36,612 nucleotides of DNA from Acidimicrobiales bacterium (lineage in GTDB: Bacteria; Actinomycetota; Acidimicrobiia; Acidimicrobiales; Aldehydirespiratoraceae): the NCBI GenBank assembly GCA_029263215.1, contig JAJCXY010000083.1, positions 1 through 36,612 of the forward strand. Direction: 5' to 3'. A program made the position numbers and the translations under genes. Shown piece by piece: positions 6,713-36,612 of the stretch; the first letter of the stretch is position 1, and each line of letters starts with the position of its first letter. The notes under the pieces are model-generated. The model saw only the letters and a list, made by a program, of their open reading frames with translations. It was not told the DNA's origin and did no database searches.

Positions 6713-6725
6713 GCCCTGAAATCTG

Positions 6726-6764: not shown

Positions 6765-6798
6765 GAATTCACTCGACCACCATCCGGGGACGATCGTC

Positions 6799-7593: not shown

Positions 7594-7608
7594 GAAAGCT
7601 GACCCGAC

Positions 7609-10440: not shown

Positions 10441-10451
10441 TCGGAGACCTG

Positions 10452-11656: not shown

Positions 11657-11660
11657 ACCG

Positions 11661-12482: not shown

Positions 12483-12949
12483 GCACCGCAGCCGACGAGC
12501 TGGTCTTCAATGTCGAAGACCCCGAACTGCCCTACGTGACCATCGGCGATCTGGGCATGGTGAGGTCGGTCGACACCGATGGTTCGCGGGTGCGGGTCGT
12601 GCTGACTCCCACCTACACCGGCTGCCCCGCCACCGAGCAGATACGAGACGACGTCGCGCAGGCGCTTCGCGGCGCCGACTTCGAACCCGAGATCGAGTTC
12701 TCGCTGAGCCCCCCATGGACCACCGACTGGATCACTCCCGACGGCCGCCGCAAGCTCTCCGCCGCCGGCATCGCCCCTCCGGGGACGGTCGATCCCTCCT
12801 CGGCCACGGCTGTCGAGACGCCCATCGAGTGCCCCCGCTGTGGCTCCCGACGCACCCGGAGACTGGCCGACTTCGGTGCCACCGCATGTAAGGCGCCCTA
12901 CCGCTGCGAGGCGTGCCGCGAACCGTTCGAAGCGTTCAAGGCGTTCTGA
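12479..12949 (+). CDS. paaD: PaaD-type Fe-S assembly protein for the epoxidase
   Basis: A 156-residue member of the PaaD (DUF59/MIP18) family, thought to help mature Fe-S or iron centres of the phenylacetyl-CoA epoxidase. The N-terminal MIP18-like domain has DPELPYVTIGDLGMV and PTYTGCPATE with the conserved Cys. The C-terminal zinc-ribbon has CPRCGS, then TACKAPYRCEACREPFEAFK. Two in-frame GTG codons (12476, 12479) overlap the paaC stop; GGAG at 12468-12471 sits better for 12479. The paaE frame opens inside its 3' end. Confidence 0.9.
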   Translation: MSTAADELVFNVEDPELPYVTIGDLGMVRSVDTDGSRVRVVLTPTYTGCPATEQIRDDVAQALRGADFEPEIEFSLSPPWTTDWITPDGRRKLSAAGIAPPGTVDPSSATAVETPIECPRCGSRRTRRLADFGATACKAPYRCEACREPFEAFKAF

Positions 12950-12975
12950 CCGTGTGTCGCGCCGACTCGCCCACC

Positions 12976-14046: not shown

Positions 14047-14090
14047 TCCAGAGCTGACCCAGAGCCCAACAAGAAGGAACGCTGATCAAG

Positions 14091-15368
14091 ATGGCAGAGC
14101 CAGAGGGGTACCAACCGATCGAGACGGCGTCGGTCGATGAGCTGCGTGCCCTCCAGAGCCAGCGCCTGGCGGCCACCGTTCGAAACGCCTACGACAACAT
14201 CGCTCACTACCGTTCGGCGTTCGACGCAGCCGGCGTCCACCCCGACCACATCACCGGCATCGAAGATATTTCCAGGCTTCCGTTCCTCGTGAAGGACGAT
14301 CTTCGAGCGGCGTACCCATTCGGAATGTTCGCGGTGCCCCGCACCGACCTCATTCGTGTCCACGCTTCCTCGGGCACCACCGGTAAGCCGACGGTGGTGG
14401 GATACACCAGAAACGACATCGAGGTGTGGGCAACGGTGATGGCCCGGTCGATGTTTGCCGCCGGAGGGAGGCCCGGCGATCTCGTCCATGTCGCCTACGG
14501 CTACGGACTCTTCACCGGCGGTCTCGGCGCCCACTACGGAGCCGAGAAACTCGGATGCACCGTGGTGCCCATGGGCGGGGGCCAAACCGAGAAACAGGTG
14601 ACCCTGATCACCGATTTCGAGCCGTCGATAATCATGGTCACCCCGTCGTATTGCCTGAATCTCATCGACGAGATGGAACGGCAGGGGATCGATCCGGCTG
14701 CCAGCTCCCTGAAGCTGGGGATCTTCGGCGCCGAGCCGTGGACCGAAGGCATGCGCACCGCGATCGAGCAACGCCTCGACATGGACGCCGTCGACATCTA
14801 TGGCCTCTCGGAGGTGATCGGGCCGGGCGTCGCCGCGGAATGTCTGGAAACCAAAGACGGGCTCACGATCTGGGAAGACCACTTCTATCCCGAGATCATC
14901 GACCCCGTCACCGGCGAAGTTCTCCCGGACGGTGAGGAGGGGGAGCTGGTTCTCACCTCGCTCACCAAGGAGGCCCTCCCCGTGATTCGCTATCGCACGC
15001 GCGACGTCACCACCTTGCTGCCGGGCACTGCTCGCACGATGCGTCGCCTCACCCGGGTGACGGGCCGCACCGACGACATGCTCATCATCCGGGGAGTCAA
15101 TGTCTACCCGTCCCAGATCGAACACGAGCTCCTGAAGGTGGAGGGCCTGTCGGCTCACTACCAGCTCCACACCACCCGCGACGCCAATATGGTCGGCCTC
15201 GTGGTGAACGTCGAGTCGGAGCGGGAAGTCGATTCCGACACCGCGGCCCAGTTGGCTGCTCGGGCCCGAGCCCAGATAAAGACAATGGTGGGGGTCAGCG
15301 CGGAGGTGGAGGTGCTGGCTCCGTTCACGGTGCCGCGGAGTGAGGGCAAGGCCCAGCGAGTGCTGTGA
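14091..15368 (+). CDS. paaK: Phenylacetate-CoA ligase
   Basis: A 425-residue AMP-forming ligase that converts phenylacetate to phenylacetyl-CoA, the entry step of the pathway. Motifs: HASSGTTGKPTVV (nucleotide loop), YGLSEVIGPGVAAEC, and TGRTDDMLIIRGVNVYPSQIE leading to the C-terminal PaaK-specific domain. Length is usual for PaaK. ATG 14091 has AGAAGGA about 12 nt upstream, a rather long spacing. It is the last gene of the operon, 44 bp after paaE, and converges on the MarR-type gene. Confidence 0.94.
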   Translation: MAEPEGYQPIETASVDELRALQSQRLAATVRNAYDNIAHYRSAFDAAGVHPDHITGIEDISRLPFLVKDDLRAAYPFGMFAVPRTDLIRVHASSGTTGKPTVVGYTRNDIEVWATVMARSMFAAGGRPGDLVHVAYGYGLFTGGLGAHYGAEKLGCTVVPMGGGQTEKQVTLITDFEPSIIMVTPSYCLNLIDEMERQGIDPAASSLKLGIFGAEPWTEGMRTAIEQRLDMDAVDIYGLSEVIGPGVAAECLETKDGLTIWEDHFYPEIIDPVTGEVLPDGEEGELVLTSLTKEALPVIRYRTRDVTTLLPGTARTMRRLTRVTGRTDDMLIIRGVNVYPSQIEHELLKVEGLSAHYQLHTTRDANMVGLVVNVESEREVDSDTAAQLAARARAQIKTMVGVSAEVEVLAPFTVPRSEGKAQRVL

Positions 15369-16026: not shown

Positions 16027-17634
16027 TCAGCGGCCGCACTCGCAGGCCACCTTGTCGTCGAGGGCCTGCCACTTGTAGGCCCTCGGCTCCGACATCACCC
16101 CACAACCCGTGCATTGCAGAGCCCACTCCGCTCCCACCCGCTGCAAAGCCACAGGATTCTCCCCGGTGGACAGCCGCGGCTTCTCCTTGACCACCCTCTG
16201 CTGGCTGATCTCCGGCAACTTCGGGCTCCGAAGCTCCATGTAGGGCTGAGCAGTGGCAATCCACTCCGGGGCATCGGGCGAGGGCTCGGGCGGCGTGAAA
16301 GTGCCCACCGTCTCCGGCTCGATCACTTCGGCGGGCCCGGTGTAATCGAGAAAATCGGCCAGCTGATCGAACTCACTGGGCCGGAATATCCGAGAGGCTT
16401 CGGCGATCTCCTCGATTTCCTCGAGGAACCCGTCGCGATCCTCAGAGAAGCGCGGGTCCTCCAGAGTGTCGGCCGCGAAGATGATCACGAAGCGAGCACC
16501 GCTGCCCAGAGGCTTGCGGCGCAGTATCCGCCCCATGCGTTGGATCATCTGGCGCCGTGTGCGGCTCGCACTCACCACCAGGCCCAGATTGGCATTGGGA
16601 ACATCGACACCCTCGTCGAGCACCCGGGGCGCCGCCACCGCGTCGAGTGTTCCGGCGCGCAGATGGTCGAGAATGGTGCCGCGATCACCGCGAGCGGTAT
16701 CGCCGGTGATGATCTCGATGGCGACGTGGGGGTCGAGGCGTACCACGGCGTGATTGGCGGCACGGACAGTCTCGGTGAACAACAGAGCGCCATCGGCGTC
16801 CTTGATCGCCGGCGCGAACTTGCCGAGCGCCTCGTACTTCGCGGAGCTGGTGGCGACGATCTCGCGGCGGGCCGCGAAGGCATTGAGATAGTCGTTCGCG
16901 GCTCGGCCGTCGGGGCCGGCATCGTTGGTGGCGAGGTGATGCACCGCGGCGAGGAAGTCGCCGAACGGGTTGTGGGGCACGCCCTTGATCTGCTTCAACG
17001 CACGCCGGGCGGCCACGATCCTGCCCTCGGTGGCGTCGTATTCGGACCGCTCGACGTCGGTGAGAGGTACCGCCATGAATCCCACCCGGGGCTGGGCGCA
17101 CACGCCATCGCTGATGGCGGCGCCGAAGTCGTAGCGGTAGCAGATCCCTCCGAAGTAGGGCAGAAGGGTGGTGTCGACTGCATCGTCGGAGCGCTCGAGG
17201 GTGGCGGTGAGGCCGAGTCGCTCCTCGTACTCGGGGAGGAGCGACTTGCGCAGGACCGCGCCGCCGAATCCGTGACACTCGTCGGCGACGAGTATCCCTC
17301 CCTTTTCGCTGGTGGGCAGGGGCACTCGTGATGCTGCGGAGTGACGGGTGGTGATCAACACATCGCAGTCGATGGGCCGGTCGCGGTAGCCGTCGCCGAG
17401 GCGACCGATCGAATGATCGGGCATCCAGCGGGTGAGACGTTCGTGCCACTGCTCCATCAGTACCCGGCTGGGCACGATGACAAGGGCGAACAGGCCGCGA
17501 CCCACGGCGTCCTCGATCGCGGTGAGGGCGACATCGGTTTTGCCCGAGCCGGTCACGGCTTCGACCACTCCTCGCCGCCCGCAGCGGTGCCACGCCATCA
17601 GGGCGTCGTGTTGCCATCGGTAGAGGGAGTGCAC
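16027..17634 (-). CDS. DEAD/DEAH-box helicase, XPB/SSL2-like, with C-terminal zinc ribbon
   Basis: A 535-residue superfamily 2 helicase/translocase. Motifs: Q-type start YRWQHDALMAWH, Walker A VTGSGKT (about residues 28-34), motif II DECHGFGG, motif III LTATLER, and motif VI QRMGRILRRK. The C terminus carries CTGCG...CECG, a likely zinc ribbon. It lacks the N-terminal damage-recognition domain of full XPB. The frame stays open far upstream into folD on the other strand, but GTG 17634 fits: the helicase domain begins there and a TAGCCT -10 box lies 8 nt ahead. It probably acts in DNA repair or remodelling; there is no clear link to its neighbours. Confidence 0.8.
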   Translation of the reverse strand: MHSLYRWQHDALMAWHRCGRRGVVEAVTGSGKTDVALTAIEDAVGRGLFALVIVPSRVLMEQWHERLTRWMPDHSIGRLGDGYRDRPIDCDVLITTRHSAASRVPLPTSEKGGILVADECHGFGGAVLRKSLLPEYEERLGLTATLERSDDAVDTTLLPYFGGICYRYDFGAAISDGVCAQPRVGFMAVPLTDVERSEYDATEGRIVAARRALKQIKGVPHNPFGDFLAAVHHLATNDAGPDGRAANDYLNAFAARREIVATSSAKYEALGKFAPAIKDADGALLFTETVRAANHAVVRLDPHVAIEIITGDTARGDRGTILDHLRAGTLDAVAAPRVLDEGVDVPNANLGLVVSASRTRRQMIQRMGRILRRKPLGSGARFVIIFAADTLEDPRFSEDRDGFLEEIEEIAEASRIFRPSEFDQLADFLDYTGPAEVIEPETVGTFTPPEPSPDAPEWIATAQPYMELRSPKLPEISQQRVVKEKPRLSTGENPVALQRVGAEWALQCTGCGVMSEPRAYKWQALDDKVACECGR

Positions 17635-17642
17635 AGCCCGAC

Positions 17643-17648
17643 AGGCTA
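17643..17648 (-). promoter_or_regulatory. -10 box for the helicase gene (leaderless)
   Basis: TAGCCT on the minus strand ends 8 nt before GTG 17634. No -35 box at standard distance and no Shine-Dalgarno. Confidence 0.4.
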
Positions 17649-17660
17649 CGGCGTCAGCAC

Positions 17661-17715
17661 GCAAGAGCCGCCCAAGAACTACCCAAGAGCTGCCCAAAGA
17701 GCGGCACAAGAGCGG
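17661..17715. repeat. Five 11-bp tandem units in the helicase/folD gap
   Basis: Degenerate units GCAAGAGCCGC, CCAAGAACTAC, CCAAGAGCTGC, CCAAAGAGCGG and CACAAGAGCGG run end to end in the divergent gap. The 11-bp period is close to one helical turn, so the copies face the same side of DNA; they could be regulator sites or merely slippage products. Confidence 0.65.
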
Positions 17716-17774
17716 CGCACGTCGCCGCGCTGCCCGTTCTCGATGCCTCGCGCCGATCGTGGGCCGGCAGGCGC

Positions 17775-17780
17775 TAGCTT
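17775..17780 (+). promoter_or_regulatory. -10 box for folD (leaderless)
   Basis: TAGCTT ends 7 nt before GTG 17788, within the same 8-mer (GCTAGCTT) found ahead of the MarR-type gene. No -35 box is visible. Confidence 0.45.
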
Positions 17781-17787
17781 CTCGCGG

Positions 17788-18678
17788 GTGACCAACAGCG
17801 AAGAATTCGAGCGCACACCCGGTGGCGCCGTGATCATGGACGGCAAGCGACTCCGCGACGAGATCGTGGCGGGAATCCGCACGAAGCTCGACGGGCTCGG
17901 CAATCCGGCGGTCTGTCTCGCCACGGTGCTCGTCGGCGACGACAAGCCCAGCCAGATCTATGTGCGAAACAAGCACAAGAAGGTCGAGGAAGCCGCAATG
18001 GTGTCGCGCCACGTCGGCCTCCCCGCCGATGTGTCCCAGGGCGAACTCGAGGCTGCGGTCACCGACCTGGCCCAGGATCCGAATGTTCACGGCATCCTTG
18101 TGCAGCTGCCCCTGCCCGAAGGTCTCGACGCCGAGCGGGTCCTCGATCTCCTGCCTCCGGAGAAGGACGTCGACGGGCTCACCGAACGATCGATGGGACG
18201 CCTCGTACGCGGACGCGACGGGCATGTCCCCTGCACCCCGTTGGGTGTGATGAGGCTGATGGAGCGCTATGGCGTGGAGACGAGCGGCAAGAGTGCCGTC
18301 GTCATCGGTCGATCGACTCTTGTCGGGCTGCCCCAGGTCCTCCTGCTCGGCCGTAAGGGTGTGGATGCCACCGCCACACTTGCCCACAGCCGCACCACTG
18401 ATCTTGCCGCCGTATGCCGAGAGGCCGACATCATCGTTGCCGCCGCGGGCATGGCGGGCCTGGTCACCGCCGAGTTCGTGAAGCCGGGCGCCGCAGTGCT
18501 CGATGTGGGCATCTCGCGCACCGCCGACGGTATCCAGGGCGATGTGCACTTCGAAAGCGTCCAGGCCGTGGCCGGTGCGATCACCCCCATGCCGGGTGGC
18601 ACCGGGCCCATGACCATCGGCTGCCTGATGGAAAACACCCTCAGCGCGGCCCGCATGCTCGGAGCACTCCCAGGCTGA
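17788..18678 (+). CDS. folD: Methylene-THF dehydrogenase / methenyl-THF cyclohydrolase
   Basis: A 296-residue bifunctional enzyme interconverting 5,10-methylene-THF and 10-formyl-THF with NADP(H). Seen: SQIYVRNKHKKVEEA (catalytic Lys region), VQLPLPEGLD, KDVDGLT, PCTPLGVMRLME, the nucleotide site VVIGRSTLVGLPQ and the C-terminal PGGTGPMT. The usual IVGKP reads LVGLP and the usual PGGVGPMT reads PGGTGPMT, mild deviations. GTG 17788 is favoured by the -10 box 7 nt upstream; GTG 17830 or ATG 17836 would trim 14-16 residues, but the family's conserved (A)VIMDGK begins just there. It faces the helicase gene and belongs functionally with fhs and folC in this window. Confidence 0.92.
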   Translation: MTNSEEFERTPGGAVIMDGKRLRDEIVAGIRTKLDGLGNPAVCLATVLVGDDKPSQIYVRNKHKKVEEAAMVSRHVGLPADVSQGELEAAVTDLAQDPNVHGILVQLPLPEGLDAERVLDLLPPEKDVDGLTERSMGRLVRGRDGHVPCTPLGVMRLMERYGVETSGKSAVVIGRSTLVGLPQVLLLGRKGVDATATLAHSRTTDLAAVCREADIIVAAAGMAGLVTAEFVKPGAAVLDVGISRTADGIQGDVHFESVQAVAGAITPMPGGTGPMTIGCLMENTLSAARMLGALPG

Positions 18679-23523: not shown

Positions 23524-25221
23524 CTAGCTGAGGTTGATGATGTTGCCGTCGGAATCGATGTCGATCGAGGCCGCGGCAGGTGTCTTTCCGAGTCCGGGCA
23601 TCGTTCGCATCTCGCCACAGATCGGGTAGACGAACCCCGCTCCGACAGAGGCCCGAATCTCGCGCACCGGCAGGGTCCAACCCGTCGGGGCACCCTTCAG
23701 CTTGGGGTCGGAGCTGATCGAGAGGTGGGTCTTGGCGATGCACACCGGCAATTTGTCGAAGCCAGCGGCGTTGTAGGTGGCCAGCTGCTTTTCGGCCTGG
23801 GCGGAGTATTCCACCCCGTCGGCGCCGTAGATCTTGGTGGCCACCGCGTGGATCTTGTCCTTGATGGAGTCTTCGAGGGGGTAGAGGACCTGGAATTCGC
23901 TCTCTTCGTCGGCAGCTTCGGCGATTGCCTCGGCGAGTTCGGCGGCGCCCTTGCCGCCATCGGCGAAGTGGGTGGATATCGCGGCGCGGGCCCCGTACTC
24001 GGCCGCGATCTCGTGTATCGCGGCGACGTCGGCGTCGTGATCGCCGGGGAACACATTGATCGCCACCACGGGTGTGGCGCCGTGGATCTGCATGTTTTCG
24101 AGCTGCTTACGCAGGTTGTCGCCACCCTGATGAACTTCATCGGGGTTTTCCGCCAGCAGGGCCTCGGGCAGGGGCCGCCCGGCGACGATGTGATGATTTC
24201 CGGAGTGGGCCTTCAGGCCGCGCACGGTGGCTACGAGCACGGCGGCGTCGGGGGCGATACCGGAATAGCGACACTTGATGTTGAAGAAGCGCTCGGCTCC
24301 CATGTCGGCGCCAAACCCGGCCTCGGTGAGCAGGTAGTCGCCGGTGTGGATCCCGATGCGATCGGCCACGATCGAGCTATTGCCGGTGGCAATGTTGCCG
24401 AAGGGGCCGGTGTGCACCAGGGCCGGGGTGTTCTCGAGGGTTTGCATGAGGTTGGGCTTGATGGCCTCGCGCAGGATCACCGTCATCGAACCGGCGGCAC
24501 CGATCTCCTCGGCGGTGATGGGGGTGCCGTCCTTGGTGTAGCCCAACACGATGCGGCCCATTCGGGCCCTGAGGTCGTGCAGGTCGGTGGCGAGGGCCAG
24601 AGCGGCCATGACCTCCGACGCGGCGGTGATGTCGAAACCCGTTTCGCGCGGGATGCCATCGAGGCGACCACCGAGGCCGACATTGATGTTACGCAACGAC
24701 CGGTCGTTGATATCGAGGACCCTGCGCCAACCGATGTTGTGGATGTCGAAGCCGGCTTCGTTGCCATGGTAGAGGTGAGCGTCGAGCATGGCAGCACAGA
24801 GATTGTGGGCCGCGGTGACGGCGTGCATGTCGCCAGTGAGGTGGAGGTTGAACAGTTCCATCGGCACCACCTGGGAGTAGCCGCCTCCGGCTGCTCCACC
24901 CTTGATCCCGAAGGTCGGGCCCATCGATGGCTGGCGGATGGCGATCGTGGCGGTCTTGCCGATGTGTTGGAAAGCCTGGCCGAGGCCCACCGCGGTGGTG
25001 GTCTTGCCCTCACCGAGAGGGGTGGGTGTGATGGCGGAGACGACGACGTATTTCCCCTTTGGCCGGTCGCTCATTGCTTCGATGGCTTCGAGCTTGATCT
25101 TCGCCGCTCCCGAGCCGTAGGGCTCGAGTAGATCGGTGGGGATCCCCGCAGCCTCTGCGATCTCCGGCAGGGGCTTGAGATTTGCTCGACTGGCGATCTC
25201 GAGATCGCTCGGGAATGACAT
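23524..25221 (-). CDS. fhs: Formate-tetrahydrofolate ligase
   Basis: A 565-residue ATP-dependent ligase joining formate and THF to give 10-formyl-THF, and reversible, so it can release formate with ATP gain. Seen: the nucleotide loop PTPLGEGKTTT, GIKGGAAGGGYSQVVPMELFNLHLTGD, GRPLPEALL, and the C-terminal GEMRTMPGLGKTPAA. Length matches the family (about 556). ATG 25221 has GGAG 7 nt upstream. It lies between the GntR gene and the MTHFR-type gene and forms a unit with the latter. With folD and fdhA in the same window it would connect methylene-THF with formate and CO2. Confidence 0.95.
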   Translation of the reverse strand: MSFPSDLEIASRANLKPLPEIAEAAGIPTDLLEPYGSGAAKIKLEAIEAMSDRPKGKYVVVSAITPTPLGEGKTTTAVGLGQAFQHIGKTATIAIRQPSMGPTFGIKGGAAGGGYSQVVPMELFNLHLTGDMHAVTAAHNLCAAMLDAHLYHGNEAGFDIHNIGWRRVLDINDRSLRNINVGLGGRLDGIPRETGFDITAASEVMAALALATDLHDLRARMGRIVLGYTKDGTPITAEEIGAAGSMTVILREAIKPNLMQTLENTPALVHTGPFGNIATGNSSIVADRIGIHTGDYLLTEAGFGADMGAERFFNIKCRYSGIAPDAAVLVATVRGLKAHSGNHHIVAGRPLPEALLAENPDEVHQGGDNLRKQLENMQIHGATPVVAINVFPGDHDADVAAIHEIAAEYGARAAISTHFADGGKGAAELAEAIAEAADEESEFQVLYPLEDSIKDKIHAVATKIYGADGVEYSAQAEKQLATYNAAGFDKLPVCIAKTHLSISSDPKLKGAPTGWTLPVREIRASVGAGFVYPICGEMRTMPGLGKTPAAASIDIDSDGNIINLS

Positions 25222-25246
25222 CACATGACTCCGTTGTCTGTGTCTG

Positions 25247-25315
25247 CTGTCTGGTATTTGCCGTCTGGACTTGCTGCCTGGTATTGGCTGCCTGGTATTG
25301 GCTGCCTGGAATTCA
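25247..25315 (-). repeat. Five 13-14-bp tandem units in the fhs leader
   Basis: Units CTGTCTGGTATTTG, CCGTCTGGACTTG, CTGCCTGGTATTGG (twice, exact) and CTGCCTGGAATTCA (plus-strand reading) lie just ahead of the fhs start, inside the probable 5' leader. I do not recognise a folate or glycine riboswitch here. Confidence 0.7.
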
Positions 25316-25345
25316 GGTGTTCGTGGGTGCCCGGACATGCGAAAT

Positions 25346-25366
25346 GCCCGCCGAGTCGCGACGGGC
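25346..25366 (-). terminator. Hairpin downstream of the GntR gene
   Basis: GCCCGCCG (25346-25353) pairs with CGACGGGC (25359-25366), an 8-bp stem with one wobble and a 5-nt loop, followed on the minus strand by ATTT. It may end the GntR transcript before the fhs gene. A second inverted repeat, GGCTGAC/GTCAGCC (25422-25428 and 25447-25453), spans the GntR stop codon. Confidence 0.4.
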
Positions 25367-25447
25367 TGTTCCGCATACCGGAACGATTCCACATTACAGA
25401 ACATCTTGATGGTTGGCCAGAGGCTGACTCGGTTTTTGTCCTCGTGG

Positions 25448-26104
25448 TCAGCCGGCGAGGGGCGACTCGAGTCGTTCGGTGACCGCCGACCGGATCTGCT
25501 CGTCGAAGGACCGAACGTGGGCCTCCACCAGATCAGAGGAGCGAGCACCGTTGGCGGCCTTCAACGCCTCGAGAATCTCGGTGTGCTCGCTCACCGCGAT
25601 CTTGGTGTCGACCACATCGGCGAGGTAGAGGTGCCAGAGTCGGTCGCTCTGGGCGTAGAGCATGTCGAGAGTGTCGAGCAGGAAACGATTGTCGGCCGCG
25701 GCCCACATGATTTCGTGGCAGCGTCGGTCGATGGCCATGAGCGTTTCTGGGTCGCCGGCCGCCGCGGGAGTCTCCGAGAGGGCCTCATCCATGGTCTGCC
25801 AATGGGCGCTGGTTCCCCTCGCTGCCGCCAGGCGGGCCGCGTAGGGCTCGAGCACGGTGCGCGTTTCGAACAGCATCGAGAGTTCGGAAACGTCGATACC
25901 CGACACGAACATTCCGCGGCGGGGGATCACGGTGACGAAGTGTTCGCGGGCGAGGCGCTGCAGGGCTTCGCGGATGGGGGTGCGGCCGATGCCGAGGAGC
26001 TCACGCAGCGCTTCCTCGCTCAGTACGTCGCCCGGCGCGAAGTCGAGGCGCACGATCATGTGGCGCAGCTTCTGATACGCCTGCTCGCTGAGTGAGAGTT
26101 CCAT
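25448..26104 (-). CDS. GntR-family regulator, FCD (FadR-like) type
   Basis: A 218-residue regulator. The N-terminal winged helix-turn-helix (about residues 5-70) contains GDVLSEEALRELLGIGRTPIREALQRLAREHFV and the wing IPRRGMFVSGI. The C-terminal FCD domain (about 80-205) is all-helical, with His residues in RRCHEIMW, SEHTEIL and EAHVRSF that could form its usual metal/ligand site. It is divergent from the dehydrogenase-etfBA operon and most likely represses it through the palindrome at 26171-26186. The ATG 26104 is where the family starts; no clear Shine-Dalgarno. The open frame upstream crosses the operator and is not coding. Confidence 0.88.
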   Translation of the reverse strand: MELSLSEQAYQKLRHMIVRLDFAPGDVLSEEALRELLGIGRTPIREALQRLAREHFVTVIPRRGMFVSGIDVSELSMLFETRTVLEPYAARLAAARGTSAHWQTMDEALSETPAAAGDPETLMAIDRRCHEIMWAAADNRFLLDTLDMLYAQSDRLWHLYLADVVDTKIAVSEHTEILEALKAANGARSSDLVEAHVRSFDEQIRSAVTERLESPLAG

Positions 26105-26233: not shown

Positions 26234-28756
26234 GTGAGTGAATTCCCCAACACCGCGAAGGTCGTCGTAATCGGCGCCGGCATCGTGGGCAACTGCCTCG
26301 TCGGCCATCTCGCCCGGCTCGGTTGGACCGACATCGTGTTGGTCGAGAAGGGCCCGCTTCCCAACCCCGGTGGTTCCACTGGCCACGCATCCAACTTCAT
26401 CTTCCCCGTCGACCACAACAAGGAGATGGCCCTGCTGGGCGAGCAGAGCGCCAACCAGTTCCGCGGCTTCGACCTGTCGGTCGATTCCGGCGGCATCGAA
26501 GTGGCCCGCTCCGAGGAGCGCATGGAGGAGCTGCGCCGCCGCATGACCTCCGCCAAGGCCTGGGGTATCGAAGCTCACATGCTCACGCCCGCCGGGGTGC
26601 AGGAGCTCGTGCCATTCATCAACCCCGAAGTCATCATGGGCGGTTTCTACTGCCCCACCGTGTCGGTGGTCGACTCCCTCGAGACCGGCACCGTCATGCG
26701 TAAGGAAGCCATCGAAACCGCGGGATGCCAGGTGTTCGCCAACACCGAAGTGCTCGATCTCACCACAGACGACGCTGTCGGCCCCAACGGTAGACGCAAG
26801 ATCACCGGGGTCATCACCGACAAGGGGACGATCGAAACCGAGCATGTCGTGATCGCCTGTGGCGTGTGGTCCAACCGCATCGCCAACATGGCCGACACCT
26901 ATATCCCTCTCGTGCCCACCGTGCACCAGATGGCCGACGTCGGCCCGATGGACATCCTCGCCGAGACCAACAACGAGATCGGCTACCCGATCATCCGCGA
27001 CATGGATACCTTCTGCTACGAACGCCAGTCGTCGGGCTCCATGGAAGTCGGCTCCTACGGGCACCGGCCGATCCTGCATCACCCCGATGAGATTCCGTCC
27101 AACGAGGAGGCCGCCCTCTCACCCACCGAGATGCCGTTCACCCCCGACGACTTCGACGACCAGATGGAGACCGCCATCGAGTTGATCGAGATGCTCGGCG
27201 AGGCCGAGATCAAGTACGCGATCAACGGCCTGCTCTCCATCACCCCCGACGGCATGCCCTGCCTCGGCGAGCTCCCCGACGTGGAAAACCTGTGGTCGGC
27301 TGCTGCTATCTGGGTGAAGGAAGGCCCCGGCATGGCCCAGGTCGTCGCCGAATGGATGACCTACGGCTACCCCCGCGTGATCGATGCCCACGGCGCTGAT
27401 ATCGCCCGCTTCTACGATGAGGAGAAGAGCGACGCTCACATCTGGGCCCGGGCCGAGGAGAGCTTCATCAAGACCTACGGGATCGTGCATCCCGCCGAGC
27501 AGTGGGGCGACCGCCGCCATCTGGTGGAGTCCCCCTACCGGAGCCGCCAGGAGGTTCTCGATGCTGAGTTCTTCCAGGCCCGGGTCTGGGAGCGGCCCCA
27601 GTGGTACAACTCCAACGCCGACCTCGTCGAGCGTTACGGCCTCGCCGAGCGCGGGGTGGAGTGGGACAACCGCTGGTGGAGCCCCATCACCACCGGCGAG
27701 CATCTCAACATGCGAGAGAACTGTGGTGTCGTCGATCTCTCCGCGTTCCAGATCTATGAGCTGGAGGGACCCGGCGCCGTCGAGTTCGCCGACTATCTGG
27801 CTGTCAACAAGGTGGATGTGGCGGTCGGTCGGTCGATCTACACGCCGTGGCTCAACCACGACGGCGGATTCCATTCCGACCTCACGATGATGCGTATGGC
27901 TGAAGACAAGGTTCGGGTGGTCACTGGCGTGTTCGACGGCGGTCGCGACGATTTCTGGGTCAGAAAGCACATGCCAAACGACGGCTCGGTCACCTTCACC
28001 AACATCACCAAATCTGTCACCACCCTCGGCCTGTGGGGTCCCAACGCGCCGGCGGTTCTCGGCCAACTCACCGACCAGGATCTCAGCCAGGCCGGTTCCG
28101 GCTACGGCTCGATCATCGATGTCGAGGTGGCCGGGGTGCCTTGCCAGCTGTTCCGGATCTCCTATGTGGGCGACACCGGCTGGGAGATCTACACCGCATG
28201 GGAGAACGGCCCCGCTCTTTGGGATGCCCTGTTCGAGGCCGGCCGAGAGCACGGACTCCGGGCCACCGGTGGCGGCGTTTACGGCTCCTCGGGCCGTCTC
28301 GAGAAGGGCTACCGCCTCATGGGGGCTGAGCTCGAAAGCGAGTACAACCCGGTCGAGGCCGGGCTGGCTCGCCCCAAGGTGAAGGCGGCCGACTTCATCG
28401 GCAAGGAGGCCTATCTGGCCGCCCGCGAAGCGGGAGCCGAGGTGCAGTGCGTCACTCTCACCGTCGAGGATCAGACCGATTCGGCAGGCCAGCAGCGTCA
28501 CATGATGGGCGGCAACGAGCCGATCCTGACCCTCGAGGGCGAGCGCATCGTCGACTCCCACGGGCGGGTCTCGCGGGTTACCTCTGCGGGCTACGGCCCC
28601 TCGGTCGGCAAGCATCTTCTCATGGGTTACCTGCCCAACGAGCTGGCGTTCGCCGGCACCGATCTCCAGGTCATGTACATGAACGAGTTGTTCCCGGTGA
28701 AGGTGGTCGGTCCAGGCTCCGCCTTCGACGCCGACGACTCGCGCTTGAAGAGCTGA
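26234..28756 (+). CDS. Dimethylglycine/sarcosine dehydrogenase-type FAD enzyme with GcvT domain
   Basis: An 840-residue two-part enzyme. Residues 1 to about 365 form a DAO-type FAD oxidoreductase: VVVIGAGIVGNCL binds FAD and GGSTGHASN carries H51, the position of covalent FAD attachment in mammalian dimethylglycine and sarcosine dehydrogenases. A linker domain (about 370-425) follows, then GcvT-like folate-binding domains (about 430-825) with RENCGVVDLSAF and SYVGDTGWEIY. The family oxidatively N-demethylates a methylated amine, passing electrons to ETF and the methyl carbon to THF as methylene-THF. Which amine is used is not shown. GTG 26234 has GGGAG 7-8 nt upstream. etfB and etfA follow at once, which fits ETF as the electron acceptor. 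Confidence 0.88.
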   Translation: MSEFPNTAKVVVIGAGIVGNCLVGHLARLGWTDIVLVEKGPLPNPGGSTGHASNFIFPVDHNKEMALLGEQSANQFRGFDLSVDSGGIEVARSEERMEELRRRMTSAKAWGIEAHMLTPAGVQELVPFINPEVIMGGFYCPTVSVVDSLETGTVMRKEAIETAGCQVFANTEVLDLTTDDAVGPNGRRKITGVITDKGTIETEHVVIACGVWSNRIANMADTYIPLVPTVHQMADVGPMDILAETNNEIGYPIIRDMDTFCYERQSSGSMEVGSYGHRPILHHPDEIPSNEEAALSPTEMPFTPDDFDDQMETAIELIEMLGEAEIKYAINGLLSITPDGMPCLGELPDVENLWSAAAIWVKEGPGMAQVVAEWMTYGYPRVIDAHGADIARFYDEEKSDAHIWARAEESFIKTYGIVHPAEQWGDRRHLVESPYRSRQEVLDAEFFQARVWERPQWYNSNADLVERYGLAERGVEWDNRWWSPITTGEHLNMRENCGVVDLSAFQIYELEGPGAVEFADYLAVNKVDVAVGRSIYTPWLNHDGGFHSDLTMMRMAEDKVRVVTGVFDGGRDDFWVRKHMPNDGSVTFTNITKSVTTLGLWGPNAPAVLGQLTDQDLSQAGSGYGSIIDVEVAGVPCQLFRISYVGDTGWEIYTAWENGPALWDALFEAGREHGLRATGGGVYGSSGRLEKGYRLMGAELESEYNPVEAGLARPKVKAADFIGKEAYLAAREAGAEVQCVTLTVEDQTDSAGQQRHMMGGNEPILTLEGERIVDSHGRVSRVTSAGYGPSVGKHLLMGYLPNELAFAGTDLQVMYMNELFPVKVVGPGSAFDADDSRLKS

Positions 28757-28775: not shown

Positions 28776-29555
28776 ATGCGCATCCTCGTTTGTGTGAAGC
28801 GGGTGCCCGCGCCGGGCGCCAAGATCAATGTGTCGGCCGATTGTCAAGACGTCGACGCGGCTCATCTCGGGTTCACCACCAGCCCCCACGAGGAGTGCGC
28901 ACTGGAGGGCGCGGTCCAGCTCGTGGAGGAACACAGTGGCGAGGTCACGGTGCTCACTCTCGGGGTGGGCGAGGCCGAAGAGCAACTGCGCTACGCGGCA
29001 TCGGTCGGAGCCGGCCACGCCGTGCTGGTCGAGGCCGACAGCAACGCCTGGGACCCTCAGCGAACCGCAACTGCGCTCACCGCGGCGATCCAGGACCTCG
29101 AGTCCTCCGACGGGCCTTTCGATCTGATGCTGTTCGGCAACGAGTCGGCCGACTCCGGCGGCTTCCAGGTAGGGGTGCGCGTGGCCCATGCCCTGGGCCG
29201 GCCGATAGTCAACGGCATCAAGGGCATCGAGGTGTCGGGCGATGGGGCGAGCGAGAGCCTCATCACGGCTCGCCGTGAGATCGACGGTGGGTTCGAGGTC
29301 TACGAATTGCCCCGGCCATGCGCGCTGGGGGTGATGGAAGGTCTGAATCTTCCTCGTTACCCCACCATGAAGGGGCGCTTGGCGTCGAAGAAGCTCGAGA
29401 TCACCACGGTTGAGGCCGCCGCGGGGGCGGGAGGCCAGGAGCGGGTGAAGCTCTACCGGCCGCCGGAAACCGTCTCAAACACGGTGGTGCTCGGCACTGG
29501 CGCGGATGCCGCCCCGGCAGTCGTCGATGTTCTTGAAGAGCTGGGGGTGCTCTGA
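28776..29555 (+). CDS. etfB: Electron transfer flavoprotein, beta subunit
   Basis: A 259-residue ETF beta subunit that binds AMP and pairs with EtfA. Seen: MRILVCVKRVPAPGAKI, SPHEECALEGAVQL, and the C-terminal NLPRYPTMKGRLASKKLE, all typical. It lies 19 bp after the dehydrogenase gene and overlaps etfA (TGATG), so it is dedicated to, or at least co-made with, that enzyme. ETF passes electrons to the quinone pool through an ETF:quinone oxidoreductase not in the window. Confidence 0.93.
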   Translation: MRILVCVKRVPAPGAKINVSADCQDVDAAHLGFTTSPHEECALEGAVQLVEEHSGEVTVLTLGVGEAEEQLRYAASVGAGHAVLVEADSNAWDPQRTATALTAAIQDLESSDGPFDLMLFGNESADSGGFQVGVRVAHALGRPIVNGIKGIEVSGDGASESLITARREIDGGFEVYELPRPCALGVMEGLNLPRYPTMKGRLASKKLEITTVEAAAGAGGQERVKLYRPPETVSNTVVLGTGADAAPAVVDVLEELGVL

Positions 29556-30529
29556 TGCTTCTCGTCTTTGTCGAACACGAAGATGGCGTACTCGTCGAGG
29601 CCGCCCGGGAAGCGCTCACCTTCGGGCGCACGCTCGCGGTGAAGATGGGCGAAGACCTGCATGCCGCGCTCATCGGCTCCGACGACGACGATCTCGTCGA
29701 GGCGGCGGGGGAGTACGGTGCCGAGACGGTTCACACCGCCACCCGCGCCGCCCTCACCGACTACAGCCCCAGTGCCTACGGCTCGATCGTCGCCCAGATG
29801 GTCGAGTCGCTCGGTCCCGCCGCGGTGTTGGCCTGTGGCACGAGCCGGGGCAACGAGGTGATGGCTCAAGTGGCCGCTCGCCTCGACGTGCCTTTCGTGG
29901 CCAACGCCCTCGACATCACTCCCGACGACGACTGGCAGATCACCCGCGTGCAGTGGGGCGGATCCCTGCTCGAGGACGTCTCGCTCGAAGCGGAGGTCCC
30001 CCTCGTCACCTGCGGCCTCCACGCTGTGGTGTCCGAGCCCGGCCATTCTCAGGATCCCGATATACCCGATATAGAAGAGTTCGATATCGAGCTCGAAGAC
30101 GCCGACCTCGTCACCATGGTGCGAGACCGTGTCGTGCAGGAAGCGGGGGTAACTCTCCCCACCGCACCGGTGGTGTGCGGCGGCGGGCGAGGGGTCGGCT
30201 CGGCTGATGGTTTCAGTCAGCTAGAGGAGTTGGCCGGCCTGCTCGGCGGGCGTGTCGGCTGCTCTCGGGCAGTGACCAACCTCGGTTGGCGTCCCCACTC
30301 CGATCAGGTGGGCCAGACCGGCACGCGCATTGCCCCGGAGATCTACATCGCCTCGGGCATCTCCGGAGCGATCCAGCACTGGGTGGGGGCGATGGCGAGC
30401 AAGCACATCCTTGCCATCAACACCGATGCCGAAGCCAACATGGTCACCAAGGCCGACTGGGCGGTCATCGGCGATCTCCACGAGGTGATCCCCGCGATAG
30501 TCGAAGAGATCAAGGCCCGTCGGGCCTAG
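29555..30529 (+). CDS. etfA: Electron transfer flavoprotein, alpha subunit
   Basis: A 324-residue ETF alpha subunit carrying the FAD. The C-terminal signature VGQTGTRIAPEIYIASGISGAIQH, continuing to HILAINTDAEANM, binds FAD. Start overlaps the etfB stop (TGATG). Between residues about 165 and 190 there is an Asp/Glu-rich stretch (DPDIPDIEEFDIELEDADL). It ends the operon; a weak hairpin (30565-30579) lies in the convergent gap before the HNH gene. Confidence 0.93.
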   Translation: MLLVFVEHEDGVLVEAAREALTFGRTLAVKMGEDLHAALIGSDDDDLVEAAGEYGAETVHTATRAALTDYSPSAYGSIVAQMVESLGPAAVLACGTSRGNEVMAQVAARLDVPFVANALDITPDDDWQITRVQWGGSLLEDVSLEAEVPLVTCGLHAVVSEPGHSQDPDIPDIEEFDIELEDADLVTMVRDRVVQEAGVTLPTAPVVCGGGRGVGSADGFSQLEELAGLLGGRVGCSRAVTNLGWRPHSDQVGQTGTRIAPEIYIASGISGAIQHWVGAMASKHILAINTDAEANMVTKADWAVIGDLHEVIPAIVEEIKARRA

Positions 30530-32008: not shown

Positions 32009-32752
32009 TCAGTCGGTGAGGTACTCGGTGATGCTGGCCGCCGCTGCTACCACCAGCACTCCCAGATCGTGGCTGCGATCGGGGTTGGGGAAACGGTAGG
32101 CGGGACCATGGATGTGGACCGCGGCCTCCACGCTGCCGTCAGCTTCGAAGATCGGAGCGGCCACCGAATTGATGCCGTCGACACCCTCCTCGTAGCCCCA
32201 CGCGTAGCCGAGGCTGCACACCTGGGCGAGTCGATCGCGGATCGCGTCGGGTTCCACGAGCGTGTAGGCGGTGGCTTTCTCGAGTTCGATGTCCAGATAG
32301 GCGTCGAGTTTGTCGTCGGGCCAGTGGGCCATGATGCACATGCCTGATGGCACGGTGTGCATGGGCAGCGACTCGCCGGTCCATTCCCGTACCTGCACAT
32401 CGCTCTCGCTCTCGACATGGTCGAGGTAGTAGACGGCGCCGTCGCTCTCGATGGAGAGTCCGGATGTCTCGCCCACATCGGCGGTGAGTTCGAGGAGGTG
32501 GGGGCGCACCGTGGCGACGAGGTTGCGGCCAGGCTGGGTGGCGCCGGCAATGTCGATGAGGCCTTCACCGAGGCGGTATTCGCCGCCGTCCTCCACCTGG
32601 GCGACTGCCCCTTCGGTCTCGAGGGCGGCGAGGAGTCGGGCCACCGTCGACTTCGGCAGACCCACTCGTTGGGCCAGGCTGGTGACGCCCATGGGGCCCA
32701 GGGCGAGTGCACGGAGCAGGGAGAAGGCTCGCTCGATCGACTGCACTGACAT
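32009..32752 (-). CDS. IclR-family transcriptional regulator
   Basis: A 247-residue regulator. The N-terminal winged helix (about residues 1-65) has SIERAFSLLRAL and GLPKSTVARLLAALETEGAV; the C-terminal IclR effector domain (about 75-245) has MHTVPSGMCIMAHW and ALSS-like segments such as GINSVAAPIFE. ATG 32752 lies 6 nt after a TAGGCT -10 box, so the mRNA is probably leaderless. A perfect operator lies over its -35 region. Its targets are unknown; it sits just after proS and next to no obvious catabolic gene, so it may act elsewhere as well as on itself. Confidence 0.88.
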   Translation of the reverse strand: MSVQSIERAFSLLRALALGPMGVTSLAQRVGLPKSTVARLLAALETEGAVAQVEDGGEYRLGEGLIDIAGATQPGRNLVATVRPHLLELTADVGETSGLSIESDGAVYYLDHVESESDVQVREWTGESLPMHTVPSGMCIMAHWPDDKLDAYLDIELEKATAYTLVEPDAIRDRLAQVCSLGYAWGYEEGVDGINSVAAPIFEADGSVEAAVHIHGPAYRFPNPDRSHDLGVLVVAAAASITEYLTD

Positions 32753-32814: not shown

Positions 32815-34515
32815 TCAGGTGCTGACCGCGGTGAGGATCCGGTATTCGATCTCGTCGAGCGCGACCCGTTCGGTGGTGCCGGCGCGACGGTCGGTGAACT
32901 CCACTTCGCCCTCGGCCAACGCCTTGGGGCCGAACGTGATCCGGTAGGGGATACCGACGAGTTCGGCGTCGGTGAACTTCACGCCGGCTCGCGCGTCTCG
33001 ATCGTCGAGCAACACGTCGGCCCCGCGGGAGCGCAGCTCGTTGTAGAGATGTTCAGCGGCCTCCACCGATGCCTCGTCCTTCATGGTCACGAGGGTTATC
33101 ACCACTTCGAAGGGGGCGACGGCGACCGGCCAGCTGAGGCCCTTGTCGTCGTAGTAGGTCTCGGCGATGGCCGCCATTGCGCGTTCGATGCCGATGCCGT
33201 AGCTGCCCATGACGAGAGGTCGCTTCGTGCCGTCGGGGTCGAGTACGTGAGCGCCGAGGGCGTCGGCGTACATCGTGCCGAGCTTGAAGATGTGACCGTT
33301 CTCGATGCAACGCACGATCTCGAGAGGGTTGCCACACGAGATGCATGGTTCGCCGACGCCCACCTCGCGGAGGTCGATCCAGTGGTCGACGGCGATGTCG
33401 CGCTCGATGTCGACCCCGCTGAAGTGCCAGTCGTCGGCGTTGGCGCCGGTGGTGAGACCGGAGCGACCCTGCAGAGCAGGATCGGCGACGATCTTCATTC
33501 CTTCCACCAGAACCGCACCGAGTGAACCAGGGCGGGCCCCAAGGTGCTCGAGTGCTTCTTCGGGAGTGGCGGGCCTGATGTCGATGGCTCCGGTGCCGTC
33601 CTGGAGTTTCTGGACATTGAGCATGTGGTCGCCTCGAACCAGGGCGAGGGTGACGGTGCCGTCGAGCATCATCACCATGGTCTTGATCTGGTGCTCGGCC
33701 GGCGCGCCGCCCTCGACTGTTTCGAGCGCCGCGATCGTGCGCACACCTGGGGTGGGGAAGCGTTCGAGCTCGCCGCCGGGGCGATCGTCGATGGCGGGGA
33801 GGGCGGAGCTGGCTCTCTCGACATTGGCGGCGTAGTCGCAGTTGCCGCACACGACAACGTCGTCCTCGCCGGCGGGGGAGGGCACCATGAATTCGGTGGA
33901 GCCGGTGCCGCCCATCGCCCCCGATGAGGCATCGACGGGAATCGCCGGGAGTCCGAGTCGTTCGAAGATTCGAACGTAGGCGCCGTGGTGGAGTTCGAAC
34001 GAGGCGTCGAGCCCGGCTTCGTCGAGGTCGAAGGAGTAGGAGTCCTTCATTGCGAATTCGCGCACACGGAGCAGGCCGCTCTTGGGCCGGGGCTCGTCGC
34101 GGAATTTGGTCTGGATCTGATACCAGATCTGGGGAAGGGTCTTGTAGGACGTGATCTCCAGGGCGAGAGTCGTGAAGACCTCCTCGTGGGTCATGCCGAG
34201 AGCGTTTTCGGCGCCCTTGCGATCGGTGACCCGAAACATCTCATCGCCCATGATTTCCCAGCGGCCCGACTTGTGCCAGAGCGACGCAGGGTGCATCGCC
34301 GGGAGCAGAAACTCCTGGGCCCCGATGGCGTCCATCTCTTCGCGCACGATCTGCTCGACCTTACGAAACACCCGCCAGCCGAGCGGCAGAATTGAGTAGT
34401 GGCCGGCGTGGAGTTGGCGGATGAACCCGGCCTGAACGAGGAGCTTGTGGCTCGCCGCCTCGGCATCGGCGGGAGCGTCTCGCAGGGTGGGAACGTGGAG
34501 TTGTGACCAGCGCAT
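32815..34515 (-). CDS. proS: Prolyl-tRNA synthetase (bacterial type)
   Basis: A 566-residue class II synthetase that charges tRNA-Pro. Motif 2 region TKFRDEPRPKSGLLRVREFAMKDSYSF, catalytic-site segment GRWEIMGDEMFR, the inserted editing (INS) domain at about residues 220-385, motif 3 GSYGIGIERAMAAI, and a C-terminal anticodon-binding domain with LLDDRDARAGVKF. ATG 34515 is preferred over ATG 34521 because a TACGGT -10 box ends 8 nt upstream of it, and no Shine-Dalgarno is seen. It is divergent from fdhA and followed by the IclR gene. Confidence 0.95.
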   Translation of the reverse strand: MRWSQLHVPTLRDAPADAEAASHKLLVQAGFIRQLHAGHYSILPLGWRVFRKVEQIVREEMDAIGAQEFLLPAMHPASLWHKSGRWEIMGDEMFRVTDRKGAENALGMTHEEVFTTLALEITSYKTLPQIWYQIQTKFRDEPRPKSGLLRVREFAMKDSYSFDLDEAGLDASFELHHGAYVRIFERLGLPAIPVDASSGAMGGTGSTEFMVPSPAGEDDVVVCGNCDYAANVERASSALPAIDDRPGGELERFPTPGVRTIAALETVEGGAPAEHQIKTMVMMLDGTVTLALVRGDHMLNVQKLQDGTGAIDIRPATPEEALEHLGARPGSLGAVLVEGMKIVADPALQGRSGLTTGANADDWHFSGVDIERDIAVDHWIDLREVGVGEPCISCGNPLEIVRCIENGHIFKLGTMYADALGAHVLDPDGTKRPLVMGSYGIGIERAMAAIAETYYDDKGLSWPVAVAPFEVVITLVTMKDEASVEAAEHLYNELRSRGADVLLDDRDARAGVKFTDAELVGIPYRITFGPKALAEGEVEFTDRRAGTTERVALDEIEYRILTAVST

Positions 34516-34523
34516 GACCATGC

Positions 34524-34529: not shown

Positions 34530-34601
34530 CCGACTCGACGGCCCGCCTTCGTGGTGGTTTCCGAATCGACCGAACCGGGCCGCTTGACGACCTCGGTCAG
34601 C

Positions 34602-34607
34602 TACTCT
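34602..34607 (+). promoter_or_regulatory. -10 box of fdhA (leaderless)
   Basis: TACTCT ends 6 nt before GTG 34614. A TTGACG lies upstream at 34584-34589, but the spacer of 12 bp is too short for a standard pair. Confidence 0.45.
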
Positions 34608-34613
34608 TCCGCC

Positions 34614-36581
34614 GTGGCCAACACGATGAAGAACAAGGCGAAGCGGTACTCCGATCCGCTCCCGAGGTTGACGACGCCGATGGTTCGCGACGATGGCGAA
34701 TTGAGGCCGGCCTCTTGGGAGGAGGCGCTGGATCGAGTGGTGGAGGGGTTCAGTTCGATCCGCGAGGAGCACGGGCCTGAGGGCTTCGCGATGTTCAGCT
34801 GCTCGAAGTCGACCAACGAGATGAACTATGCGGCGCAGAAGTTCATTCGCACCGCGATGGGGTCGAACAACATCGACTCCTGCAATCGAACTTGACACGC
34901 TCCTTCGGTCGTCGGTCTGGCGACAGTGTTCGGAGCGGGTGGCGGAACCTCGTCTTACACAGAGATCGAGGAGACCGATGTCATCTTGCTGTGGGGATCC
35001 AATGCCCGTGAAGCTCATCCCATCTTCTTTCATCACCTGTTGAAGGGTCTCGACAACGGCGCGCTGATGTACGCGGTGGATCCGCGCCGCACGTCGTCGT
35101 CGAAGTTTGCCGATGTCTGGCTCGGCCTCGACGTCGGCACCGACATCGCCATGGCCAACGCCGTGGGCCGCGAGATCATCGCCGCTGATCTCCAGAACAA
35201 GGAGTTCATAGAGCACTCGACGGAGGGGTTCGAGACCTATAAGGAGGCGGTCGAACCCTTCACTCTCGACTACGCCGAGCAGATCACCGGTGTGCCCGCG
35301 GCCGCGATTCGCGAGATGGCTCACGCCTATGCGTCGGCGGAGAAGGCCCAGATCCTGTGGACCCTCGGAATCACCGAACACCACAACGGGGTCGACAATG
35401 TGTTCTCGCTCTGCAATCTCGCTCTCCTCACCGGCCATGTGGGTCGCTGGGGTTCGGGCCTCGTGCCCCTGCGCGGCCAGAACAATGTGCAGGGCGGCGG
35501 CGACATGGGAGCTCTGCCCAACAAGTTTCCCGGCTTCCAGACCGTGGGCGATCCCGAAGCCCAAGCCAAGTTCGAAGCGGCCTACGGGGTGGATCTCAAC
35601 CCCGAGCCCGGCCTCCACCTCACCCTGATGTTCGAGGCCATGGACGAAGGCACCATCAAGGGCGCCTACGTCATCGGTGAGAATCCGGCCGACTCCGAAG
35701 CCGATGTCGATCACGCCCGGAGGCTTCTGGCCGACCTCGACATTCTCGTCGTGCAGGACATTTTCATGACCCGCACCGCGGAGTTGGCCGACGTGGTTCT
35801 TCCTGCTTCGGTGGGCTGGGCCGAGGCCGACGGCACCGTCACCTCGTCGGAGCGCAGGGTGCAACGGGTGAGAGCGGCAGTGACGCCTCCCGGTGAGGCC
35901 CGTCACGACACCGAGATCATCGGGGAACTCGCCCGCCGCCTCGGCGTCGAGTGGGGTGAGCCGTCGTCTGAGGATCTGTGGGACGAGCTCAGGTCGCTTT
36001 CGCCGTTACATCAGGGCATGAGCTGGGAGCGGCTCGAAACGGAGGGTGGACTCCAGTGGCCGTGCCCCGATCTCGATCATCCCGGCAGCCCATACCTCCA
36101 CGGATGGTTGTGGGAGTCGGATCTCGGCGGCCGCGGCCCGGCCCCGTTCACCGTCACCGAGCACGAGGGGCCCATCGATGAGCTCACCGACGAATTCCCT
36201 TTGCGGCTCACCACCGGCCGAGCTCTCGACTCTTACAACACCGGGGTGCAGTCCGGCGGCTTCGAGTCGCCTATCCGCTACGGCGATGCCATCGATCTGA
36301 ATCCTGCCGATGCGCTGACCCTCGAGATCGCCGATGGCGAACGGGTGCTGGTGACCTCGCCGCGAGGAGCGGTGGAGATGGTGACGCGGATACAGCCCGA
36401 CATTCCTCGAGGTCTCACCTTCACCACCTTCCATTTCCCGGAGCTGGTCGACATCAACACCATCACCAACGACGCGTGGGACCCCCAGTCGGGCACCGCT
36501 GAGTTCAAGGCAGCCTCGATCCGGATCGACAAGTTGGCTCCGGTGACGGCGGGCGACAAGTCGGTGGATGCCAATGGCTGA
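34614..36581 (+). CDS. fdhA: Formate dehydrogenase alpha subunit, selenocysteine-containing
   Basis: A molybdopterin (Mo or W) formate dehydrogenase oxidising formate to CO2, 655 residues when the in-frame TGA at 34893-34895 is read as Sec (U94). Around it the protein reads IDSCNRT-U-HAPSVVGLATVFG, which aligns with the U140-H141 active site of E. coli FdhF; a SECIS-like hairpin follows. Other signatures: PLRGQNNVQGGGDMGALPNKFPG (with the conserved Arg), VVQDIFMTRTAELADVVLPA, and a C-terminal molydopterin dinucleotide-binding domain. Read without Sec it looks like two open frames split by a stop. The N terminus starts directly at RLTTPMVRDDGELRPASWEEAL, so the usual N-terminal [4Fe-4S] domain with four Cys is missing. 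GTG 34614 follows a TACTCT -10 box by 6 nt. It overlaps the next gene. Confidence 0.92.
34893..34937 (+). promoter_or_regulatory. UGA-Sec codon with SECIS hairpin
   Basis: TGA (34893-34895) is followed by a stem-loop inside the coding sequence: lower stem CGCTCC (34898-34903) with GGAGCG (34932-34937), upper stem GTCG (34908-34911) with CGAC (34921-34924), plus U-G and C-G closing pairs, and apical loop GGTCT (34914-34918). The loop begins 19 nt after the TGA, the same place as the GGUCU loop that SelB binds in E. coli fdhF as I remember that sequence. Confidence 0.88.
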
Positions 36582-36612
36582 TCTCTTCATATCCGAAGAC
36601 CAGGCCGACGAG
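36574..36612 (+). CDS. Start of a gene after fdhA (partial, unidentified)
   Basis: Only 13 codons (MADLFISEDQADE) are visible, starting 8 bp inside the end of fdhA with GGTGG upstream. The overlap suggests the same operon. By position it could be another formate dehydrogenase subunit or a maturation protein, perhaps the partner that supplies the Fe-S clusters missing from FdhA, but 13 residues do not allow identification. Confidence 0.5.
   Translation, partial: MADLFISEDQADE

Follow-up and report, generated by a model that had tools for sequence, protein, structure and literature searches.

An in-frame TGA, likely a selenocysteine codon, in a formate dehydrogenase gene of an Acidimicrobiales bacterium

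The window analysed here, a stretch of 36,612 nucleotides, ends with two open reading frames that lie in the same frame and are parted by a single TGA. Is this a broken gene, or one formate dehydrogenase (FDH) gene in which the TGA encodes selenocysteine (Sec)? The best explanation is one gene, fdhA, whose TGA is likely a Sec codon and whose product is the predicted catalytic subunit of a cytoplasmic NAD-dependent FDH, with the Mo-proximal [4Fe-4S] domain on a separate subunit. We put the probability of this reading at about 0.93. The coordinates of the features are collected in Table 1.

Table 1. Features of the window around fdhA. Nucleotides (nt) of the hairpin are counted from the U of UGA.
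Feature	Coordinates	Strand	Remarks
folD-like	17341-18678		upstream of fdhA
fhs, formate-tetrahydrofolate ligase	23524-25548	-	mechanical ORF, match from residue 113; homologue in 36/80 relatives' loci
dimethylglycine/sarcosine-dehydrogenase-GcvT-like	26234-28756	+	under NCBIfam cut-off
ETF-beta-like	28776-29555	+	under NCBIfam cut-off
ETF-alpha-like	29555-30529	+	under NCBIfam cut-off
IclR-type regulator	32009-32752	-	IclR homologue in 25/80 relatives' loci
proS	32815-34521	-	divergent from fdhA and not an enzyme subunit; in 19/80 relatives' loci
fdhA, catalytic (Mo/W-bisMGD) subunit of FDH	34614-36581	+	without N-terminal [4Fe-4S] domain
in-frame TGA, predicted Sec codon, residue 94	34893-34895	+	from relatives and FdhH alignment
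span closed by lower helix of hairpin	34898-34937	+	nt 6-11 pair with nt 40-45 here; poor conservation
apical stem-loop, predicted SECIS	34908-34924	+	stem nt 16-21/27-32
loop GGUCU	34914-34918	+	nt 22-26; apical stem 6 bp
fdhB, first 13 codons (MADLFISEDQADE)	36574-36612	+	overlaps fdhA stop; contig ends there

One gene across two open reading frames

The mechanical open reading frames at this locus are 34551-34895 and 34926-36581. Between 34614 and 36578 the TGA at residue 94 is the sole internal stop, and the terminal stop of fdhA (36579-36581) is also a TGA. The start is uncertain: the product has 655 aa from the GTG at 34614 or 651 aa from the ATG at 34626, and conservation is seen from about residue 13 on. 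TIGR01591 (Fdh-alpha) is the best NCBIfam match of FdhA, with 647.3 bits over residues 16-638 and model positions 51-672. This is 19 bits under the curated cut-off (666.25), because the first 50 positions of the model are absent. Pfam finds both molybdopterin domains, Molybdopterin and Molydop_binding. The segment 34614-36581 is one FDH gene, and both frames encode one protein. An earlier note had proposed this from two same-frame frames parted by one TGA; its coordinates hold, and the TIGR01591 match spans both frames.

Translation through the TGA gives CNRT-U-HAPSVVGL, which the same note had recognised as an FDH active site, and in the alignment with E. coli FdhH residue 94 indeed coincides with its Sec. 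U94, H95 and R287 of FdhA align to Sec, His and Arg of FdhH (1aa6; the Arg was counted by hand), which we take to be Sec140, His141 and Arg333 and whose catalytic roles we likewise assume. FDH alpha is listed with the motif UHxP in a part of PMC13188914.

According to a passage of PMC10100899, annotation programs cut selenoprotein genes at TGA, and gene callers had been expected to truncate fdhA. This is borne out by the databases. The best 120 of 8000 scored database proteins, which include that of the window itself, measure 523-558 aa, and all 120 match FdhA only from residues 99-125 on, which is the part after the Sec codon. Formate oxidation by these bacteria, which are mostly known from metagenomes, is easily missed where databases end genes at TGA. 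A plasmid search gave 236 records, all below 60% identity.

The TGA codon, the hairpin behind it and the Sec machinery

Relatives of fdhA were collected by a scan of genome contigs, and the best 80 of 129 were kept. The residue-94 codon is TGA in 78 of these 80 and TGC (Cys) in the other two, so that the relatives carry a Sec-type TGA or Cys at this residue, a comparison that the note had asked for. The protein downstream of the TGA is 60-84% identical in the relatives kept. The two TGC rows are isolates (L076 and L094) titled Marinactinospora and Marinitenerispora. Within the class, 38 of 148 sampled genomes have a close fdhA, and each match includes one or more TGA codons; 37 of these matches are unbroken with an identity of at least 60%, and that of G090 is in two pieces. 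Among those 38, the TGA was confirmed as the same codon only in the host genome (G000), G075 and G027. G027 is a single-contig 4.83-Mb genome in which the TGA-bearing fdhA is followed by fdhB and fdhC, which speaks against an assembly fault.

Some titles of the relatives are doubtful. L084, L087 and L092, titled 'Bifidobacterium breve', are metagenome bins whose titles look mislabelled, and L066, L068 and L086, titled 'Ferrithrix thermotolerans DSM 19514', are also metagenome bins. On the tree, fdhA of these six bins clusters with rows titled Acidimicrobiaceae or Ilumatobacteraceae.

The TGA is followed by a SECIS-like hairpin. A GGTCT loop at the distance seen in E. coli fdhF had been claimed, and the loop indeed lies at nt 22-26 from the U of UGA both here and in fdhF of E. 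coli K-12. To describe its conservation, 79 Sec rows (78 relatives and the window) were counted, with the two Cys rows left out and handled separately. The GGT loop codon is present in 79 of 79 Sec rows; GGT makes up only 20% in 30 other conserved Gly columns of fdhA, and of the 93 conserved codon columns with fourfold degeneracy, that of the loop Gly is the sole invariant one. At stem bases 18 and 30, which are free third codon positions (Val and Ala), 41 of the 79 rows have C-G, the other 38 have G-C, and none is mispaired. In the two Cys rows these bases are C-C and the loop is GGCCT, so neither the loop nor full pairing is kept.

Pairing was scored cell by cell over 68 distinct rows. It is complete (100%) in the apical helix and reaches 81.9% in the lower one, which is poorly conserved. 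The full hairpin scores 90.9%, versus 86.6% for shuffles and 32-60% after a shift of 1-3 columns. Two-sided pair changes were not raised over shuffles (252/500), and neither were further pair types (245/500). The C-G/G-C swap at the stem bases is a single event on the tree, that is, one compensatory event. The support for the hairpin is therefore the strict keeping of both states and of the loop, not repeated covariation. The fold energy of the window hairpin is unremarkable (z -0.71; 43 of 200 shuffles as good), and the E. coli fdhF region does not surpass it (z -0.67; 49 of 200), so single-sequence fold energy is uninformative here. No Rfam family passes its gathering score in the whole window; by E-value, a search of 101 bases gave SECIS_3 only (16 bits, E 0.23, gathering score 63). 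A blastn search with the Sec region against E. coli genomes gave no match.

The host had been expected to carry selA, selB, selD and a UCA tRNA-Sec, and homologues of all four were found in its genome. SelB (273 bits, over cut-off), a SelA homologue and tRNA-Sec (64 bits, over cut-off, anticodon tca) are all on contig C78, which places selA, selB and selC on one contig; SelD is on contig C18. The host selD (L010 1501-2427; G000:C18:50460-51386) has an in-frame TGA of its own in the context GAGUGCK and is itself a predicted selenoprotein gene. The earlier statement that selenoproteins are sparse in actinobacteria does not apply to Acidimicrobiia, since SelB was over cut-off in 73 of 148 sampled genomes of this class. 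By hand count, 37 of the 38 genomes that carry a close fdhA have SelB over cut-off, versus 36 of the 110 others (Fisher p 2e-13 over the 148 genomes, with kinship ignored). The 95% complete draft G058 has a close TGA-bearing fdhA and no SelB over cut-off. Taken together, the TGA of fdhA is likely read through as Sec.

Other accounts of the TGA were weighed on the same evidence. Were it a true stop, fdhA would be a pseudogene or would carry an assembly or sequencing error. Gene callers do treat the TGA as a stop, and the window comes from a 131-contig draft, but the conservation of TGA at one codon in 78 of 80 kept loci with Cys in the others, the loop and stem that go with TGA and not with TGC, and the same TGA in the single-contig genome make this account very improbable. 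Translation could also stop at the TGA and restart at the GTG at 34926, giving a working 551-aa enzyme and a short leader. An open frame with this GTG start exists, and the listed database proteins are predicted in this way. Yet the TGA sits on the metal ligand, a restart would lose the active-site Sec-His pair, and two of 80 relatives have Cys within a continuous frame, so that two working polypeptides deserve as little credence as a true stop. The most remote account is that the TGA is decoded as Cys or Trp via a code change or a suppressor and not via SelB. No evidence in favour of it was found, except that an open frame alone leaves the residue unnamed; the host homologues of SelA, SelB, SelD and UCA tRNA-Sec, the conserved SECIS-like hairpin and the terminal TGA stop of fdhA itself all argue against it. 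Decoding of the TGA as Sec is therefore the reading kept below.

The separate [4Fe-4S] domain and the partner subunits

FDH catalytic chains such as FdhH start with a [4Fe-4S] domain. This domain (PF04879) is absent from FdhA in the Pfam search, and an Fe4S4 motif before the Sec codon was found in 0 of 80 relatives, two of which (L037 and L099) are truncated where their contig begins. In the alignment with FdhH the catalytic residues match, but FdhA is neither FdhF-shaped nor FdsA-shaped, because the [4Fe-4S] domain is absent; in relatives this domain is encoded by a separate gene.

The genes downstream of fdhA are known from relatives. The fdhB gene encodes a NuoE-NuoF fusion, with the domains found by Pfam in 3 of 3 fdhB tested. 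The fdhC gene encodes [2Fe-2S] and two [4Fe-4S] sites followed by PF04879 at the end, again in 3 of 3 tested. The products run through Pfam have 588-648 aa for fdhB and 286-403 aa for fdhC. Of the 69 loci that extend more than 1.5 kb past fdhA, 67 have an fdhB-like gene there (all but L062 and L097); of the 61 that extend more than 3.3 kb, 59 have an fdhC-like gene (all but L062 and L067). L062 has 6 kb of downstream sequence without fdhB and fdhC. A CxxCxxxC...C (Fe4S4) motif was found downstream in 58 of the 61 loci with more than 3.3 kb. A second script found the motif in 60 of 64 fdhC-like frames, followed by a median of 13 residues. Among the four frames without it, those of L023, L056 and L064 run off the contig and that of L085 ends early.

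About 2 kb separates fdhA from fdhB in 11 of the 80 loci (L052, L057, L059, L066, L067, L068, L077, L080, L081, L087 and L092). A second fdhA copy in this gap was considered and rejected, as no second match was found there.

The closest comparison is with 6tg9_A, which we take to be the FdsABG-type FDH chain of Rhodobacter capsulatus. FdhC of L033 aligns to residues 24-303 and FdhA of the window to residues 302-931 of this solved alpha chain, which indicates that an FdsA-type chain is divided between its [4Fe-4S] and molybdopterin domains. The NuoE- and NuoF-type domains of FdhB presumably correspond to FdsG and FdsB. Unlike in FdsABG, the single alpha chain is represented by two genes in reversed order that flank fdhB, and the NuoE- and NuoF-like parts are fused. 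The HxxxCxxCxxxxxC site of 6tg9_A was found in 0 of 64 FdhC-like frames, 63 of which are informative (the L079 frame starts past the site). The active-site residue also differs, being Sec here and not Cys; a part of PMC10100899 lists FdsA as Cys type.

The host assembly is a 94.8% complete draft of 131 contigs, and no fdhB, fdhC or fdhD was found elsewhere in it; FdhD was searched with TIGR00129 and PF02634 without a match. The best matches of fdhB and fdhC in the host genome, 40% and 30% identical, are both on contig C116 and were taken as complex I genes. We assume that the assembly lost all three where the contig breaks off. A genome of the same family, G075, has fdhA-fdhB-fdhC plus fdhD, and among the 38 genomes that carry a close fdhA, 35 have FdhD and only G000, G008 and G050 lack it. 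The idea of an FdhD-free FDH was accordingly dropped. In another genome, G121:C31:4520-6379 holds a relative of 44% identity, an open frame of 965 codons that contains one TGA. It is possibly a fused Sec-FDH within the same bacterial class and would be of use for comparison with the split enzyme.

The NuoE/F-like fdhB and the fdhC that ends in the missing domain indicate that the enzyme is likely a cytoplasmic NAD-linked FDH with an FdsA-like subunit in two pieces. An alternative is that the same selenoprotein serves a partner other than NAD+, either reducing CO2 or working with a different carrier. The best solved-chain match of FdhA is a subunit of a hydrogen-dependent CO2 reductase and the next is an F420-linked FDH, and the host assembly lacks fdhB and fdhC. 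Against this, the NuoE/F-type fdhB is nearly always present where the relatives' loci leave room, and the first 13 fdhB codons are inside the window. We regard another partner as improbable, though less so than the other accounts of the TGA, and retain the NAD-linked reading.

A mechanism for FdhABC can be proposed from homology, with FdhB and FdhC as known from relatives. Insertion of Sec at the UGA would rely on SelA, SelB, SelD and tRNA-Sec, SelB being bound to the GGUCU hairpin. As a ligand of Mo or W in bis-MGD, Sec94 would oxidise formate together with His95 and Arg287. The electrons would then move from one protein to another, entering the [4Fe-4S] cluster at the FdhC C-terminus, and pass the two [4Fe-4S] sites and one [2Fe-2S] site of FdhC to FdhB, whose predicted [2Fe-2S], [4Fe-4S] and FMN cofactors would serve to reduce NAD+. 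In a broader form, this would be a widespread and unrecognised class of Sec-FDH in which the catalytic chain has given up its Mo-proximal [4Fe-4S] domain, now the tail of a NuoG-like electron-wire subunit, the first electron step runs between proteins, and the catalytic half is hidden by truncation at the TGA; we lean towards this broader view by a small margin. The split catalytic chain would offer a natural test of how electrons exit a Mo-Se site.

Known enzymes and the gene neighbourhood

A Sec-containing three-subunit FDH of similar subunit lengths has already been published. Actinomycetospora chiangmaiensis DSM 45062 is described as having three Sec-containing FDHs, of which FDH3 is termed cytoplasmic NAD+-dependent and has subunits of 640, 614 and 316 aa, with its FdhD listed outside the FDH3 cluster; formate removal by this strain needs selenite, and the authors credit FDH1 and FDH3 jointly (parts of PMC7176365). 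Judged by the number and size of its subunits, FDH3 appears to share the arrangement described here (655 aa for FdhA, with the relatives' FdhB and FdhC ranges given above). The passages of that paper on FDH3 contain no mention of a missing [4Fe-4S] domain or of a division of FdsA. In our literature search, supplements aside, no description of an FdsA division or of a Sec-FDH in Acidimicrobiia was recognised. E. coli FdhH shares the aligned Sec-His-Arg and the GGTCT loop at equal distance. It differs in that its own chain carries the [4Fe-4S] domain and that it serves formate-hydrogen lyase, not NAD+. The protein studied here is probably a selenoprotein FDH of known kind, and the split catalytic chain is the part that deserves the attention of specialists. 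As wider background, FDH alpha and SelD are named as the most widespread bacterial selenoproteins in a passage of PMC5029168, and SelA and SelB are mentioned in sponge-symbiont bins of various phyla in a passage of PMC5649159.

Upstream of fdhA the window also holds folC and an MTHFR-like gene. Among the neighbours, folC, fhs and proS pass NCBIfam cut-offs, and the other one-carbon, ETF and IclR genes are under them. The neighbour counts cover 80 relatives' loci that reach at most 6 kb upstream. A demethylase-like homologue was found in 11 of them, three below 30% identity and one downstream of fdhA; ETF alpha was found in nine and ETF beta in seven. G075 keeps the demethylase (its end only, as the stretch begins inside it), ETF, IclR and proS through to fdhC. 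In G027, a 16-kb stretch around fdhA contains none of these neighbours, be it the one-carbon genes, ETF, IclR or proS.

The nearby folate one-carbon genes suggest that the FDH finishes a demethylation pathway, in which N-methyl groups would pass via folate to formate and then to CO2 and NADH. Dimethylglycine or sarcosine would yield methylene-THF, from which FolD and then Fhs in reverse would release formate. This reading predicts that the use of methylated compounds by these bacteria depends on trace selenium.

Elsewhere in the window, 8410-15368 is a phenylacetate degradation cluster, with PaaZ, PaaA, PaaC, PaaD and PaaK over cut-off and a PaaE-like gene. It is adjoined by a branched-chain-amino-acid-type ABC transporter (2835-8397).
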